Origin: Armatimonadota bacterium
GTDB lineage: Bacteria > Armatimonadota > Fimbriimonadia > Fimbriimonadales > ATM1
Assembly: GCA_003577165.1 (NCBI GenBank)
Contig: QEUM01000002.1
Coordinates: 62,001 to 126,000 of the forward strand
Direction: 5' to 3'
Length of the DNA: 64,000 nt
In this document: piece by piece, positions 4,310-24,310 of the stretch
Layout of the letters: each line of letters opens with the position of its first letter
Numbering within the stretch: position 1 is the stretch's first letter
Translations under genes and position numbers: made by a program
The notes under the pieces: generated by a model
What the model was told of the DNA's origin: nothing
The model's database searches: none
What the model saw: only the letters and a program-made list of their open reading frames with translations

Positions 4310-5242
4310 TTATCTCGAGAACAGACTGCGCAGGAAGAAGGCGAGATTCGCAGGCCTCTCTGCGAGTCTGCGAGTGAAGTAGGGATACCAACTGTCTCCG
4401 TACGGGCAGTAGACCCGCACGATGCGCCCTTCGCGCTTGAGGTCTCGCTGAAGCCGTCGCGCGATTCCGTACAGCATTTGAAACTCGAATCGGCCCGGAC
4501 CGACGGCATTGGCGTCGGCGTAATCCGCAATGGCGCGTGCGAGTGTGGCGTCATGGGTCGCGAAGGCTGGAAAGATCCCGTCGAGGGCGAGCCTTTGAGC
4601 GTATTGCAGGTAGGCCGCGTCCACTTCGCTCTTCTTCTGCAGGGCAACTGCCGGTGGTTCAAGATACGCGCCCTTCACGAGCCGAACGCGTATGCGCCTC
4701 GCGATCGCCCAGTCAAGGTCAGTCGCCGTTCTGTGGAGCATGGCTTGCAGAACGATTCCGACGTTTCTGTGTTTGCAGAAGGCAGCTTCCGCGAGTTCGA
4801 GGGTTGCATCCACGGTCGAACTCGATTCCATGTCGATGCGCACGAAGATGCGGTACTTTTCTGCGGCTTCAAGGAGCCGGATCAAGCGTCTGCCACATCC
4901 CTGAAAGTCGGCCAGTAACCCCAACTGCGACAACTTGATCGAGATGTTGATGTTCTCCGGTTGCCAGCCCCCCCGGTGCGGACTCGCTGCGATCGCGTCT
5001 ACGACTCGGAGGTACTCCGCGAGCGCGGCGTCCGCCTCTTCTGGGTTCGTGGTGTCTTCCCCCAGGAAGTCGAGACTCGTCTTATATCCCGACTCGACAA
5101 GGCCCTCGACGATCGGCATCGCCTCGTCCAGGCAGTTTCCCGCAATGAATCGCCGGACGACCCGCTTGGTGAGGGAAGAGTTTCGAACGAAGTTCTCGAT
5201 GAGTCGGCGTTTCGCAACGGAGAGGATTACGTTTCGCAGCAT
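4310..5242 (-). CDS. Proline dehydrogenase
   Basis: A 310-aa monofunctional proline dehydrogenase of the PRODH/PutA TIM-barrel family, which oxidises L-proline to pyrroline-5-carboxylate with FAD and passes electrons to the quinone pool. Family signatures are DFLGEDTTN, NINISIKLSQLG, VRIDMESS, VRLVKGAYLEP, FATHDATLA and the C-terminal VRVYCPYGDSWYPYFTRRLAERPAN that closes over the substrate. Its length is usual for single-domain bacterial and Deinococcus/Firmicute-type enzymes, not the PutA fusion. No P5C dehydrogenase lies nearby. It is convergent with the second sugar dehydrogenase with only 9 bp between stops. Confidence 0.9.
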   Translation of the reverse strand: MLRNVILSVAKRRLIENFVRNSSLTKRVVRRFIAGNCLDEAMPIVEGLVESGYKTSLDFLGEDTTNPEEADAALAEYLRVVDAIAASPHRGGWQPENINISIKLSQLGLLADFQGCGRRLIRLLEAAEKYRIFVRIDMESSSTVDATLELAEAAFCKHRNVGIVLQAMLHRTATDLDWAIARRIRVRLVKGAYLEPPAVALQKKSEVDAAYLQYAQRLALDGIFPAFATHDATLARAIADYADANAVGPGRFEFQMLYGIARRLQRDLKREGRIVRVYCPYGDSWYPYFTRRLAERPANLAFFLRSLFSR

Positions 5243-5272
5243 TGCGGGCGGGCGAATACTACCCGCACCAAA

Positions 5273-6499
5273 TTAGCGCTTCCCGACGTACTTCTGGCGC
5301 GTGATGCCGCCGCGGTTTGCGAGCGTGAGCGCGCTTCCGGGGACCGTGATCAACTGAGCGCCTGGGTAGTAGGCGGCGAGGATCTGCTTGTAGTCCTGAC
5401 CCGCTTTCGCTCGGCCGACCGCTCCGGCCTGGCACATCCCGACCCCATGGCCCCACCCCCGGCCCCGGAGTTTCCAACCGTCGGGAGTTCGTTCGAGGGT
5501 GAAGAACGTCGATCGAAGGACGTTTACGCCGAGGGCGGCCCGGAGGGAAGTGGCGGGAATCCTCCGGTCGCTGACGGGGCCGACGACGACCACAGCGGCA
5601 ACACGTCCGCTCTCTGTCGTGCCGTCGATTCGAAGATCAGTGACGGGGCCGGTAAACAGGCCCGCCTTCTGTAGGAGGTCGGAAACCTGCACCTGCGTGA
5701 AGGATGCCTCCCACTCGAAGTACTTCGCCCCCGTCGCAAAAGGCCTGCCTGATTCGTCCACGTCCGGTACCGACCTCAGGTACGGGACTTCCGAGCCGAA
5801 CGCCTCGCGTGCAGAAGCGGTCACTCCGCCACTCACCGTGGCATAGAGAGCGCTGATTGGTCGGCCGTCGAAGATCAGGATTTGATTCGCCGTCTGGCGC
5901 ACGGCTTCGTTCGTTCGCTCTGCCTCGGCTGTTGCGCCTCGGTAGGTTTGGGCTCGCGTGTTGTCCACCAGGTCGCAGCCCTCCTTCACGAAGTCGCCAA
6001 TGCGGCTCAGGGCATACGTCCGGGCCGCCACCGCCTGGGCTTTGAGCGCTTCGAGCGGGTTCGAGGCCCCCAGTTCGCAGGGCAGAACGCCCGTAAGGTA
6101 GGCCTCAAGCGGCAGTTCGTTTACAGGCCAAATCCGGCTGCCGCGTATGGACAGTTGAATCCAGCCTCGGTACTCCCGGGTGCTGGAGGGGCCGACCACC
6201 TTGAGGGTGGGCCCTTCTGCGCTGAAGTAAAGCGCCGGAGCGCTGAGGCGGCCCACTTGAAGCGAGCCTGCATCGAGGCGCACCTTCGCCGCCTCGCCGG
6301 CTTCCCACTCGGCCAGGACCTTGTGGGAATCGGGATCGAACGCTGCGAAAGGGGTCGAGGAGGTGAGGGTGACTTCCTGGGCGACGCCGAGGGACTCGAG
6401 GCCGACCCGAATCAGTTGAACTCGGTCCGCCGCGCGAACTCCGGCTACGGCAGACGAAGCAGCGGCCAAGCATCCGAGGGCCAGACAAGGAACGCGCAT
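5273..6499 (-). CDS. Exported SpoIID/LytB-domain protein
   Basis: A 408-aa protein with a signal peptide (residues 1-24, cleavage near VRAADR) and a SpoIID-like domain. Hallmarks are LPLEAYLTGVLPCELG, LEALKAQAVAARTYAL, ALYATVSGG, RSVPD and the terminal GRGWGHGVGMCQAGA. SpoIID enzymes are lytic transglycosylases acting on peptidoglycan strands lacking stem peptides. Outside spore formers the domain is common in cell-wall remodelling proteins. Nothing else in the window points to sporulation. It is transcribed divergently from rpoB across a 177-bp gap. Confidence 0.85.
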   Translation of the reverse strand: MRVPCLALGCLAAASSAVAGVRAADRVQLIRVGLESLGVAQEVTLTSSTPFAAFDPDSHKVLAEWEAGEAAKVRLDAGSLQVGRLSAPALYFSAEGPTLKVVGPSSTREYRGWIQLSIRGSRIWPVNELPLEAYLTGVLPCELGASNPLEALKAQAVAARTYALSRIGDFVKEGCDLVDNTRAQTYRGATAEAERTNEAVRQTANQILIFDGRPISALYATVSGGVTASAREAFGSEVPYLRSVPDVDESGRPFATGAKYFEWEASFTQVQVSDLLQKAGLFTGPVTDLRIDGTTESGRVAAVVVVGPVSDRRIPATSLRAALGVNVLRSTFFTLERTPDGWKLRGRGWGHGVGMCQAGAVGRAKAGQDYKQILAAYYPGAQLITVPGSALTLANRGGITRQKYVGKR

Positions 6500-6613
6500 G
6501 TCGTCAGGGAGATTATGAGCCGGTCAAAGGGCCTCTTTCAGGGTCGGCTGTCGGGAAGTCCGGGCGCACCGGACAAAGTAATGGGCATATACGGACGATT
6601 TGAGGCGAAAACC

Positions 6614-6643
6614 TTGACCCGACAGGGTGCGGCGAGGTAGGCT
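6614..6643 (+). promoter_or_regulatory. Possible sigma-70-type promoter of rpoB
   Basis: TTGACC (6614-6619) and TAGGCT (6638-6643) are separated by 18 bp, about 34 bp upstream of the rpoB ATG, in the gap between the divergent SpoIID gene and rpoB. The hexamers are close to, but not at, consensus. Called by eye only. Confidence 0.4.
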
Positions 6644-6676
6644 CACAGTTTGTCGCTACCTTGCCCGGAGGTCTGA

Positions 6677-9600
6677 ATGAAGGAGATTAGACACGCCTCG
6701 AAGCGGCTCGGCGCCGTGCTCGAGGTGCCCAATCTCATTGAGCTGCAGTTAAATTCTTATCGGTCGTTTGTTGAACGCGGTCTACCGGAGTTACTCCAAA
6801 GTTTCTCGCCAATATGGGATTTTACCCATTCGAATTACATCGAGTTCCTCGATTTCACCCTTGGCCAGCCGAAGTATTCGCTGGAAGAATGTCGCGATAG
6901 AGATGTGACGTATGAGGCCCCGATCAAGGTTCAGGTTCGCCTGGGCGGAAAGGAGCGGGAGGTCATTGAATCGGAGGTCTACCTCGGCGATCTGCCGTTG
7001 ATGACAGACCACGGTACGTTCATCATCAACGGTCGTGAGCGGGTCATCGTCTCGCAGTTGAGCCGAAGTCCTGGCATCTACTTCTTCGACGAACCTCAGC
7101 AGGCCACGAAGTGGGAGCTTCGCCACGTCCTCATGCATCGTCTCCCGATGCGATCTGAGATCCTTCCCAACCAGGGCAAGTGGCTCGAGATCGCTGAAGT
7201 GGAGCCGGATTTCGTTCTGCAGGTGACTCTCAGCCAAAGCAAGAGAGTGCCTCTGACACAAGTCATGAAGGCGTTCTGGGGGCTGCCCCAAGCGCGCACG
7301 TTCATCAATCGGCCCCTCGAACGCGCGATTCACATGAGGCTCGCGGAGCCTTTGGTGGACAAGAAGACCGGAGAAGTGCTGGGCGATAAGGACGCCCTGA
7401 TTACAGAGTCCTTCGTCAAGAGCCTTCCGAAGGCTCTCCTGGCGGCGCCTCATCCCGTTTACTCGCGAACGGAGACCAACGAGGACCTGCTTCTCTTGTT
7501 CGGCACGAATAAGAAGCTCAAGTCTCCGACGGCGGAAGACCTGGTAGGTAAGCGCGCGAATGAGGACATCAAGGACGGGGAATCTCTCATCGTCGCGAAG
7601 CACGGGCGGATCGATCGCGATACGGCCAAGAAGATTGAGTCCCTCAAACTCAAAACGGTGGACGTGTTGGAAGTCAATCCGTTCATCGATGCGACGCTCG
7701 CCGCCGACACGACGGACAACACTGCTTCAGCACTGAAAGACTTGCACCGCAAACTCCGACCTGGCGAAACGCCCGACCCGGAGAACGCCAAAACGCAACT
7801 GTTCGGCCTCTACTTCGATCCGAGGAACTACGACCTCGGTCGGGTGGGCCGCCACCAAATCAATCGCCGGCTCGGCATCGACATCTCAGATTCGGTTCGC
7901 AATCTGACTGCGGAAGACCTGGTGCACATGGTCTATCGCATGACGAGGCTGCTCGAGGGCGAGATTAGCGGCGACGACATCGACCACCTGCAGAACAAGC
8001 GGATTCGTTCGATCGGCGACCTGTTGCAGGCTCAAATGAGAGTCGGCCTGGGTCGAATGGAGAAAGTTGCTCGCGAAAGGATGACGAGCGCGGAGCCTGA
8101 GGCACTCCTGCCCGGCATCATTCTGAGCGTCAAGCCCGTGATGGCGAGCATCAAGAGCTTCTTCAGCAGCAGCCACCTCAGCACGTTCATGGATCAGACA
8201 AACCCCATGAGCGAGATTTCGAACAAGCGTCGCTTGTCGACGCTTCCGGATCGTCGGCCTTCGGCGAGCGGAAAGCCGGGCGTCGTCGACGCCCAGCGAG
8301 AAGTGCAGCCGAGCGAATACGGGCGCATCTGCCCGATCGAAACTCCGGAAGGGCCGAACGTCGGCCTGATGAAGCAGTTGACCGTCTTCGCTAAGATCGA
8401 CGACGACGGCTTCCTCCATGCGCCGTTCCGAAAAGTCGAGAACGGATACGTCACGGATGAAATCGAGTACCTCGTCGCCGGCGAAGAGGACGGCCGAAAG
8501 GTCGCCCCACCGGATGCGCTGGTAGACGACAGGGGCCGCTTAGCGACGGAATACGTTCAGGTTCGGTTTCGCGGCGAGTTCCCTGAGGTTAAGAGAGAAG
8601 ACGTCGAATTGATGGACGCTTCGCCGGTCATCTTCTCCGTTGCCGCGGCCTGCATTCCGTTCCTCAACCACGACGACGGCGCGCGCGCCCTGATGGGCTC
8701 GAACATGCAGAGGCAAGCGGTGCCGCTGCTGCGTTCGGAGCGGCCGATCGTCGGAACCGGATACGAGGAGCGAATCGCCGTGGACAGCGGCTCCTCGATT
8801 CGCGCCGAGCGAACGGGCACCGTTGAATATGTGACGGCCCAGGAGATCGTGATTCGGCCGGACGGTAACGGCAGCGTCGACCGCTACGTGCTGAACCACA
8901 TGCGGCAGAGCAATAAGTCCACTTGCTTCACGCATCGCCCCATCGTGTTCCCTGGTCAGAGAGTTCGCGTCGGCCAACCGATTGCCGACGGACCTTCGTG
9001 CGACCAGGGCCACCTCGCCCTGGGGAAGAACCTCGTCGTGGCGTTCATGCCGTGGCGTGGCTACAACTATGAAGACGCGATCGTCGTGAGCGAGCGGCTC
9101 GTGCGCGACGACGTGTTCACGTCCATTCACATCGAGCGTTACGACACAGAAGCGGTCGACACGAAACTCGGGCCCGAAGAGATCACGCGCGACATTCCGA
9201 ACGTCGGCGAAGATTCGCTCAAGGACCTCGACGAAAGTGGAATCGTTCGGATCGGTGCCGACGTGCGGCCCCTCGACATCCTTGTCGGCAAGGTCGCCCC
9301 GAAGGGGCAGGTCGAACTTACGGCCGAAGAAAGGCTGATCATCGCGATCTTCGGAAAGAAGGCCGAAGAGACTCGCGACGTTTCGCTGCGCGTCCCCCAC
9401 GGGGAGCAGGGCACCGTCGTAGACGTCAAGGTGTTCAGCCGATACAAGTATCGCTGCAAGGACACGGGCAAGATCTTCTACGAATCGAAGAAGCGCGAGC
9501 ACATGGTGAGTGAAATCACCGGTGGTGAACTCGAGCAGATTCCCGGTGACGAGTTGCCTGCGGGCACGAACATGACGGTGCAGGTGCACGTCGCGCAGAA

Positions 9601-10693
9601 GCGCAAGCTGACGGTGGGCGACAAGATGGCCGGCCGGCATGGCAACAAGGGCGTCATCAGCCGCATCGTTGCGGTCGAAGATATGCCCGTGCTCGAAGAC
9701 GGCACGCCCGTTGACATCGTTCTGAACCCGCTCGGCGTTCCGAGCCGCTTGAACGACGGCCAGATGTTGGAAACAATGCTGGGCCTCGTCGGCAAGCAAC
9801 TTGGCTTGCGGTTCTTCTGCCCGGCATTCGAGGGCAGCCGCCCTGAGCAGGTGTTCGACGAACTCACGCGCATCGCCGAGAAGATGCGCGCGGACGTGCT
9901 GCAGGCTTACGCGAACTCGGAACTCGGGCTCGGCGTGGAATTCGAGTACGGAGCGACCGTCGACGAGATGCTCGCGGAAATCGAAACTGCGCTCAAGAGT
10001 TTGGGCAAGACTCGACTCGAACAGGTGTCCCAGATCGTCGCCGCGGACCCAGCGTTTACGATCGGCGACATGGATCCGGACGCGGTGTTGGAAGTCGCGG
10101 ACAATGAGCCGCCTTACAAGGCGCCGAAGGCAGTCTACGAGTCCATTCTCAACCGAATCCGCACGAACGTGTGGGTGCGGGCTGGAATCGACGAGGAGAC
10201 CGGCAAGAGTCTTTTGCGCGACGGCGTTACGGGAGAGAGATTCGAATTCCCTGTGGCCGTCGGCGTGATGTACATGTTCAAACTCGAGCACCTCGCGGAA
10301 GAGAAGATCCACGCAAGGAGCATCGGCCCGTACTCGCTGGTCACCCAGCAGCCGCTGGGCGGCAAGGCTCAATTCGGCGGACAGCGCTTCGGTGAAATGG
10401 AAGTCTGGGCGCTTGAGGCGTATGGAGCGGCCAACACGCTGCAGGAGATCATCACCATCAAATCTGACGACGTGATGGGTCGAGTCCGCACGTATGAAAG
10501 CATCGTGCGCGGAGAGACCCTGCTTGAACCTGGCGTGCCGGAGTCATTCAAGATTCTGGTCAACGAATTGCGAAGCCTTGGCTTGCGCGTTACAGTCGAG
10601 GACAAGGGTGGTCGCGAAATCAACCTTCGCGATCTGGACGAACAATCTTACGGAGACGACATGAAGTTGGCTCGCTCCGTTGGTTTCTTCTAA
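6677..10693 (+). CDS. rpoB: DNA-directed RNA polymerase beta subunit
   Basis: A 1338-aa beta subunit, half of the RNA polymerase catalytic core. The ATG follows GGAGG. Landmarks are INGRERVIVSQLSRSPG, the rifampicin-pocket segment (residues 496-523), YGRICPIETPEGPN, MPWRGYNYEDAI, the active-site segment GDKMAGRHGNKG (981-992) and the C-terminal clamp segment with LGGKAQFGGQRFGEMEVWALEAYGAA. Unusually, residues 524-540 (PDRRPSASGKPGVVDAQ) replace the normally near-invariant GPGGLTRERAGFEV of fork loop 2, and T503 and N516 occupy the positions of E. coli Q513 and H526, both rifampicin contacts. Upstream rplJ/rplL are absent. A small gene and rpoC follow in the same direction. Confidence 0.97.
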   Translation: MKEIRHASKRLGAVLEVPNLIELQLNSYRSFVERGLPELLQSFSPIWDFTHSNYIEFLDFTLGQPKYSLEECRDRDVTYEAPIKVQVRLGGKEREVIESEVYLGDLPLMTDHGTFIINGRERVIVSQLSRSPGIYFFDEPQQATKWELRHVLMHRLPMRSEILPNQGKWLEIAEVEPDFVLQVTLSQSKRVPLTQVMKAFWGLPQARTFINRPLERAIHMRLAEPLVDKKTGEVLGDKDALITESFVKSLPKALLAAPHPVYSRTETNEDLLLLFGTNKKLKSPTAEDLVGKRANEDIKDGESLIVAKHGRIDRDTAKKIESLKLKTVDVLEVNPFIDATLAADTTDNTASALKDLHRKLRPGETPDPENAKTQLFGLYFDPRNYDLGRVGRHQINRRLGIDISDSVRNLTAEDLVHMVYRMTRLLEGEISGDDIDHLQNKRIRSIGDLLQAQMRVGLGRMEKVARERMTSAEPEALLPGIILSVKPVMASIKSFFSSSHLSTFMDQTNPMSEISNKRRLSTLPDRRPSASGKPGVVDAQREVQPSEYGRICPIETPEGPNVGLMKQLTVFAKIDDDGFLHAPFRKVENGYVTDEIEYLVAGEEDGRKVAPPDALVDDRGRLATEYVQVRFRGEFPEVKREDVELMDASPVIFSVAAACIPFLNHDDGARALMGSNMQRQAVPLLRSERPIVGTGYEERIAVDSGSSIRAERTGTVEYVTAQEIVIRPDGNGSVDRYVLNHMRQSNKSTCFTHRPIVFPGQRVRVGQPIADGPSCDQGHLALGKNLVVAFMPWRGYNYEDAIVVSERLVRDDVFTSIHIERYDTEAVDTKLGPEEITRDIPNVGEDSLKDLDESGIVRIGADVRPLDILVGKVAPKGQVELTAEERLIIAIFGKKAEETRDVSLRVPHGEQGTVVDVKVFSRYKYRCKDTGKIFYESKKREHMVSEITGGELEQIPGDELPAGTNMTVQVHVAQKRKLTVGDKMAGRHGNKGVISRIVAVEDMPVLEDGTPVDIVLNPLGVPSRLNDGQMLETMLGLVGKQLGLRFFCPAFEGSRPEQVFDELTRIAEKMRADVLQAYANSELGLGVEFEYGATVDEMLAEIETALKSLGKTRLEQVSQIVAADPAFTIGDMDPDAVLEVADNEPPYKAPKAVYESILNRIRTNVWVRAGIDEETGKSLLRDGVTGERFEFPVAVGVMYMFKLEHLAEEKIHARSIGPYSLVTQQPLGGKAQFGGQRFGEMEVWALEAYGAANTLQEIITIKSDDVMGRVRTYESIVRGETLLEPGVPESFKILVNELRSLGLRVTVEDKGGREINLRDLDEQSYGDDMKLARSVGFF

Positions 10694-10754
10694 CGCATGG
10701 ACGCTTTGGGCTCGCTAAGTTAAGGCGGCCCAGATAATGGAGAACAAAAAATCA

Positions 10755-11036
10755 ATGGCAAAAGTTAGATTCGTGTTTGACGGAAATACTGAGGTAGTCG
10801 TCGGCGCGGCCACGGATCGTGGCGCGAAGTTGATGGTTACCGGCGTTCGCCGACGTCTCGAGGGAGGCGAAACCCTCATCGAGGTGAAGGGAACGGACGG
10901 CTCGGTCTTCTTGAACGCTGAGCGGCTGGCATTCGTCGTCCCGATCGTTTCGGGCGAGAAGAAGTCCGGCGGAGCGAAGAAGGCTCGCGCTGCTGCCCCG
11001 AAGAAAGCGAAGGGCGGGAAGCGAGGCCGGAGGTAG
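10755..11036 (+). CDS. Small basic protein of unknown function between rpoB and rpoC
   Basis: A 93-aa protein if started at ATG 10755 (MAKVRFVFDG), preceded by TGGAGA with 11 nt spacing; an in-frame ATG at 10737 would add six residues. Residues about 1-62 look like a compact beta-rich domain (alternating hydrophobics, LIEVKGTDGSVFLNAERLAFVVPIV). Residues 65-93 are a disordered Lys/Arg/Ala/Gly tail of the kind that binds nucleic acid. I do not recognise a family. It lies 61 bp after rpoB and 64 bp before rpoC on the same strand, so it is almost certainly co-transcribed with the polymerase genes. An RNA-polymerase-associated or RNA-binding role is inference from position and charge only. Confidence 0.75.
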   Translation: MAKVRFVFDGNTEVVVGAATDRGAKLMVTGVRRRLEGGETLIEVKGTDGSVFLNAERLAFVVPIVSGEKKSGGAKKARAAAPKKAKGGKRGRR

Positions 11037-11100: not shown

Positions 11101-15804
<4,704 letters not shown>

Positions 15805-24047: not shown

Positions 24048-24310
24048 GCGTCGTCGGAGTCGAAGTCGGCGCGTGCCGCGACGGGTGGCTTGTAGCCTGG
24101 AATCTGCCGTGATGGAATGATCGCGGTCACGGCGTGCTTGTAGACCAGTTCGGTCGGTTTTCCCGGCGCCTCGAGGAGAATTGTAAACGCGTCGAATCCC
24201 TTCACGAGACCGCGCAACTGGACACCGCCGGACAGGTACACCGTGACCGAGATGGCCTCCTTTCTCACTTGATTCAAGAACATTTCCTGCAGGTTAATTG
24301 CTTTCGCCAT
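24044..24310 (-). CDS. hfq: RNA chaperone Hfq
   Basis: An 88-aa Sm-like protein that forms hexamers and promotes small-RNA/mRNA pairing. Sm1 is visible as FLNQVRKEAISVTVYLSGGVQLRGLV and Sm2 as LVYKHAVTAIIPSR, close to the canonical YKHAI motif. The start MAKAINLQEMF at 24310 lies 17 nt inside the upstream miaA gene. The loop between strands is two residues longer than in E. coli, and the tail (KPPVAARADFDSDDA) is short and acidic at its end. Confidence 0.93.
   Translation of the reverse strand: MAKAINLQEMFLNQVRKEAISVTVYLSGGVQLRGLVKGFDAFTILLEAPGKPTELVYKHAVTAIIPSRQIPGYKPPVAARADFDSDDA

Follow-up and report, generated by a model that had tools for sequence, protein, structure and literature searches.

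The genes rpoB and rpoC, which encode the beta and beta' subunits of RNA polymerase, are nearly always direct neighbours. What, then, is a small basic protein doing between them? In the window (the whole stretch of Armatimonadota DNA that was analysed, 64,000 nucleotides in length), a 93-aa protein, here called X, had been predicted to separate the two genes, and its reading frame was confirmed at 10755–11036 on the plus strand, between bona fide neighbours. The features of the locus are as follows.

6677–10693, plus strand: rpoB, RNA polymerase beta (1338 aa; NCBIfam TIGR02013, 1400 bits), the upstream partner, in which SRLNDGQ replaces SRMNIGQ.
10737–10754, plus strand: the stretch 5′ of the X start, with an in-frame ATG at 10737 and GGAG at 10739–10742 (read by eye).
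10755–11036, plus strand: X, a 93-aa SRB/DUF3107-like basic protein (open reading frame listing, homologues and codon selection).
10755–10946, plus strand: folded domain of X as modelled, residues 1–64, beta-beta-alpha-beta-beta-beta (AlphaFold2, Foldseek and hhalign).
10947–11033, plus strand: basic tail of X, residues 65–93, with 12 K/R of 29, predicted disordered, without the AT-hook core GRP (composition and model).
11101–15804, plus strand: rpoC, RNA polymerase beta' (1567 aa; NCBIfam TIGR02386, 1373 bits), the downstream partner, with changes in bridge helix, trigger loop and F-loop and an intact NADFDGD.

The X reading frame consists of 93 codons plus a stop (product MAKVRFVFDGNTEVVVGAATDRGAKLMVTGVRRRLEGGETLIEVKGTDGSVFLNAERLAFVVPIVSGEKKSGGAKKARAAAPKKAKGGKRGRR) and is separated by 61 nt from rpoB and by 64 nt from rpoC, with all three genes on the plus strand. 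The GGAG at 10739–10742, 12 nt ahead of the 10755 start, may be a ribosome-binding site. Translation from the ATG at 10737 would yield 99 aa, but 10755 is preferred as the start because the starts of homologues align there instead. X is a real gene under strong purifying selection: in a codon alignment of the domain (64 codons, four genomes), 39 first, 41 second and 6 third codon positions were invariant, and pairwise comparison of the four genomes gave dN of 0.21–0.34 and dS of 1.1–2.4 (one pair saturated), with dN/dS of ∼0.1–0.27 for those pairs for which both values were computable. GC3 of X (0.71) was close to that of rpoB and rpoC (0.75–0.76), and X therefore shows no obvious sign of recent import. 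A consensus scan detected neither a promoter nor a terminator on the plus strand of the rpoB–rpoC gap; such an absence between rpoB, X and rpoC is compatible with a single transcript, although it is no proof of one. On the 5′ side of rpoB lie proline dehydrogenase-like and SpoIID-like genes on the minus strand (4310–6693), with no ribosomal protein genes, so that the common rplKAJL-rpoBC arrangement is disrupted at this locus.

To establish the distribution of X, a profile of its domain was searched against 291 Armatimonadota genomes and matched five (G000, which contains the window, G001, G003, G005 and G007), all from one family within the Fimbriimonadales. In 5/5 of these genomes, X occupies the rpoB–rpoC interval, co-oriented with both genes and separated from them by short gaps, the distance from X to rpoC ranging from 19 to 81 nt. 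The original prediction had named scattered homologues at unrelated loci as evidence against it, and no such scatter was seen. Whole-genome searches of relatives returned the four homologues with the same conserved N-terminus and in the same place, and the named records of X came from four Fimbriimonadales/Armatimonadetes MAGs in a scan of 84,980 species that reaches close relatives only. The shared synteny points to a single origin of X, and its conservation between rpoB and rpoC across several genera suggests that the product is made in step with the polymerase. X was absent from three genomes of the same family (G002, G004 and G006), where the rpoB–rpoC gap is ∼40–80 bp and no copy was found elsewhere in the genome; two of the three have polymerases close to those of X-bearing genomes. 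Each genome has one copy of rpoC, and on an RpoC tree, which was built on the N-terminus without the bridge helix and trigger loop and has several poorly supported forks, the distribution of X requires three changes, the simplest course being a single gain followed by two losses. X was thus probably lost twice and is therefore no obligatory polymerase subunit. A weak match in G008 (E = 0.003), which covers 44 residues of an open frame of 413, was discarded as chance. No relatives of X were found in IMG/VR or among plasmids, and with its host-like GC3 a virus or plasmid origin was rejected. In G037, a relative from another family, the sequence directly 5′ of rpoC is unlike the end of rpoB.

A beta-rich core followed by a Lys/Arg tail had been anticipated for X, and the model agrees on both counts: the domain has five strands and one helix (AlphaFold2, mean pLDDT of 94), and the K/R-rich C-terminus is modelled as disordered (pLDDT of ∼50). 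Among homologues, the domain is 43–62% identical to the window copy. Conservation is lowest in the tail, whose length is 29–30 residues in the window copy and G003 and 140–171 in the other three. In the window copy it carries 12 K/R versus 1 D/E. The isoelectric point of the whole protein is 10.6–12, compared with 5.3–9.6 for the domain alone (near neutral in several members), so that the charge sits in the tail. The tails of G001 and G007 contain AT-hook-like KRGRP/RRGRKP repeats with eight to nine RGR repeats, and the GRP core occurs six times in G001 and three times in G007, compared with none in the window copy; G003 also lacks an AT-hook core, and the tail of G005 contains RRKRR repeats. 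The AT_hook family of Pfam (PF02178) scored 14.5–14.8 bits on X from G001 and G007, below its cut-off of 17.4. We regard the recurrence of a basic, low-complexity tail of variable length as the best sequence argument for putative nucleic acid binding by X.

Structural and profile comparisons of the domain point to one protein family. Foldseek of the X model against the PDB returned Rv3208A (DUF3107) for all of the top five matches (probability 1.00, TM 0.61–0.74, E = 0.005–0.011), with Hfq as the next group (E = 0.2 or worse). DUF3107 was also the sole weak Pfam match common to more than one domain-only sequence of X (G001, E = 0.0039; G007, E = 0.029; both collinear). The best member reached 17.9 bits, below the PF11305 cut-off of 27; the window copy had no DUF3107 match in Pfam, and no match to PF11305 above cut-off was found in the Armatimonadota genomes, where matches fell mostly inside long frames. 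The X family was aligned by hhalign with five DUF3107 proteins (Rv3208A, its sequence taken from the PDB, plus copies from Nonomuraea, Paenarthrobacter, Tsukamurella and Nocardia), giving a probability of 77 and P = 2 × 10−5 over 54 columns; the score of 29.4 was reached by 0/200 column shuffles (mean 11.0, maximum 19.8). This profile similarity is suggestive of remote homology and does not prove it.

The order of strands and helix and the domain length of DUF3107/SRB (PF11305; Rv3208A/TB9.4; PDB 7rur, 7rus and 9nip) are as in X. In contrast, the strongly basic tail is an addition of X, and the genomic setting differs: X is embedded in an rpo locus, and the annotated DUF3107 neighbourhoods of actinobacteria that were read are non-rpo loci. 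A C-terminal VGF, invariant in the five DUF3107 proteins, is missing from all X proteins. Moreover, the fold of X alone is unspecific, because small folds of such topology are common, and many unrelated, unnamed phage proteins in a viral fold library matched the model equally well. Since the Pfam scores stay under the cut-off, VGF is missing and phage folds score equally, we call X SRB-like and not a member of DUF3107, the similarity being remote. The name derives from the PDB title of 9nip (“Small RNA-Binding protein (SRB)”), an entry for the mycobacterial member of DUF3107, and this title is the source of the RNA-binding label, and the oligomeric states (octamer and hexadecamer entries of Rv3208A) are likewise taken from titles. 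On a plasmid of Paenarthrobacter ureafaciens, a DUF3107 gene lies near a gene for a site-specific DNA-methyltransferase.

Other known systems were compared with X, which had no match above cut-off to any family in Pfam, NCBIfam, PHROGs or PADLOC. Matches of the window copy to CbiG_N (E = 0.036) and PRK10904 (E = 0.041) were considered chance, CbiG_N appearing in no other member. Hfq and bacterial Lsm proteins (PF17209), the second group of fold matches, have a small beta-rich domain like that of X, and Hfq also bears a disordered tail; however, the helix is internal in X and N-terminal in Hfq, with a TM of ∼0.5. The Sm1/Sm2 motifs of Hfq/Lsm were not detected in X by Pfam, and hhalign against local Hfqs found no sequence similarity (P = 0.89). 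A standard Hfq gene is present in the window (24101–24292, minus strand), and X as a replacement for Hfq was rejected because of this true Hfq. AT-hook/histone H1-like tailed proteins (PF02178) share RGRP/RGRKP repeats with two X homologues, but the window copy is without such repeats and homologue scores are under the curated cut-off. Epsilon (RpoY) and omega (RpoZ) are, like X, small proteins tied by gene order to polymerase genes. Omega is encoded elsewhere, as a separate gene, in 10/10 genomes tested, which excludes X as its replacement, and X was rejected as being Hfq or omega itself because it matches neither family.

Taken as a whole, we give roughly even chances to X being an accessory protein of this lineage alone, SRB-like and tailed, that binds nucleic acid and is co-expressed with RNA polymerase. 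X would be translated from a presumed rpoB-X-rpoC message and hence be made in step with the polymerase. Its 64-residue domain would be distantly related to DUF3107/SRB of actinobacteria and probably assembles into a small, ring-like homo-oligomer, on which many basic, disordered tails would be displayed; these tails may hold RNA and/or DNA non-specifically. X could then work close to transcription, much like an RNA chaperone or a nucleoid protein, and would be optional and no core subunit. A more specific version, in which a ring-forming, SRB-like X with many basic tails travels on the transcribing polymerase or alongside it and catches nascent RNA or DNA, is doubtful; if true, X would represent a transcription accessory factor of a new, lineage-specific type.

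The original prediction had proposed an accessory polymerase subunit or a nucleic-acid-binding factor. The fold and tail fit nucleic acid binding, but the absence of X from G002, G004 and G006 speaks against an obligatory subunit. That X is nonetheless a true accessory subunit (epsilon/RpoY- or delta-like), with its domain docked on beta/beta' and its tail holding nucleic acid inside the main channel or close to it, we consider unlikely. The strict linkage to rpoB and rpoC (5/5 genomes), the basic tail and the balanced expression that such a gene order should bring would all be in keeping with such a subunit, but X was lost from or is absent in three relatives of the family, two of which have closely related polymerases, and it is not tied to the altered catalytic centre described below. 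In addition, X has no match to polymerase subunit families in Pfam or NCBIfam, epsilon is absent among the 50 best fold matches listed for the X model, and omega is present in every genome tested.

Nucleic acid binding could also be unconnected to the polymerase: X may be a nucleoid-associated DNA-binding protein with an AT-hook/H1-like tail and a small oligomerising domain, for which the locus would provide high growth-linked expression and no functional tie to the polymerase. The KRGRP/RRGRKP repeats of G001 and G007, the RRKRR repeats of G005 and the tails of 140–171 residues agree with this, but neither the window copy nor G003 has the AT-hook core, and their tails measure just 29–30 residues; the best AT_hook score (14.8 bits) is under the cut-off of 17.4, and no part of the protein is less conserved than the tail. 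Such a role is improbable. We hold it very unlikely that X is a local autoregulator that binds the rpoB-X-rpoC message (e.g., the rpoC leader) and adjusts translation of RpoC: its RNA-binding-like domain and its position immediately 5′ of rpoC in 5/5 genomes would suit a regulator of this kind, but the X–rpoC gap varies from 19 to 81 nt and basic tails suggest unspecific binding. With an SRB-like, co-expressed accessory protein as the preferred reading, what is new in X is an SRB-like domain with an added tail in a new genomic context; the literature searched, which lay mostly outside subscription journals, yielded nothing on SRB or on any gene placed between rpoB and rpoC. If X is SRB-like, an actinobacterial fold with one member named as RNA-binding reaches another phylum, with a tail and a transcription locus added. 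X is unusual and well defined, but small and restricted to one lineage, and its function is putative. Among relatives with otherwise close polymerases, some have X and others lack it, which makes for a clean natural comparison.

The catalytic centre had been noted as altered on both sides of X, and the changes in RpoB and RpoC are real, with NADFDGD intact, but they are not linked to X. Altered bridge helix, trigger-loop start and F-loop were found in RpoC of G000, G003, G004 and G005, and of G006 where read: the bridge helix has LLMGYSGF, the trigger loop FHHGG, and the F-loop departs from QLAGMRGLMSDP. In RpoB of the altered polymerases, SRLNDGQM (SRLNAGQM in G004) replaces SRMNIGQI. The catalytic NADFDGD is intact in these polymerases and its catalytic aspartates are kept. 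A back-translated pattern of the altered bridge helix matched exactly those five of 291 Armatimonadota genomes and no viral contigs. X occurs with a canonical centre in G001 and G007, and the altered centre occurs without X in G004 and G006, a distribution that rules out X as compensation for the altered catalytic centre; most simply, X predates the change of the polymerase active site. The coordinated changes affect nearly universal elements of the active site and are a separate finding, stronger than X. The altered active site may make these polymerases naturally resistant to inhibitors binding at this site. Also in rpoC of the window, ∼100 residues lie between FHHGGVATG and VERLLEAR (residues ∼1115–1210), including a K-rich low-complexity stretch, and related genomes carry an rpoC insert of different sequence at the same site.
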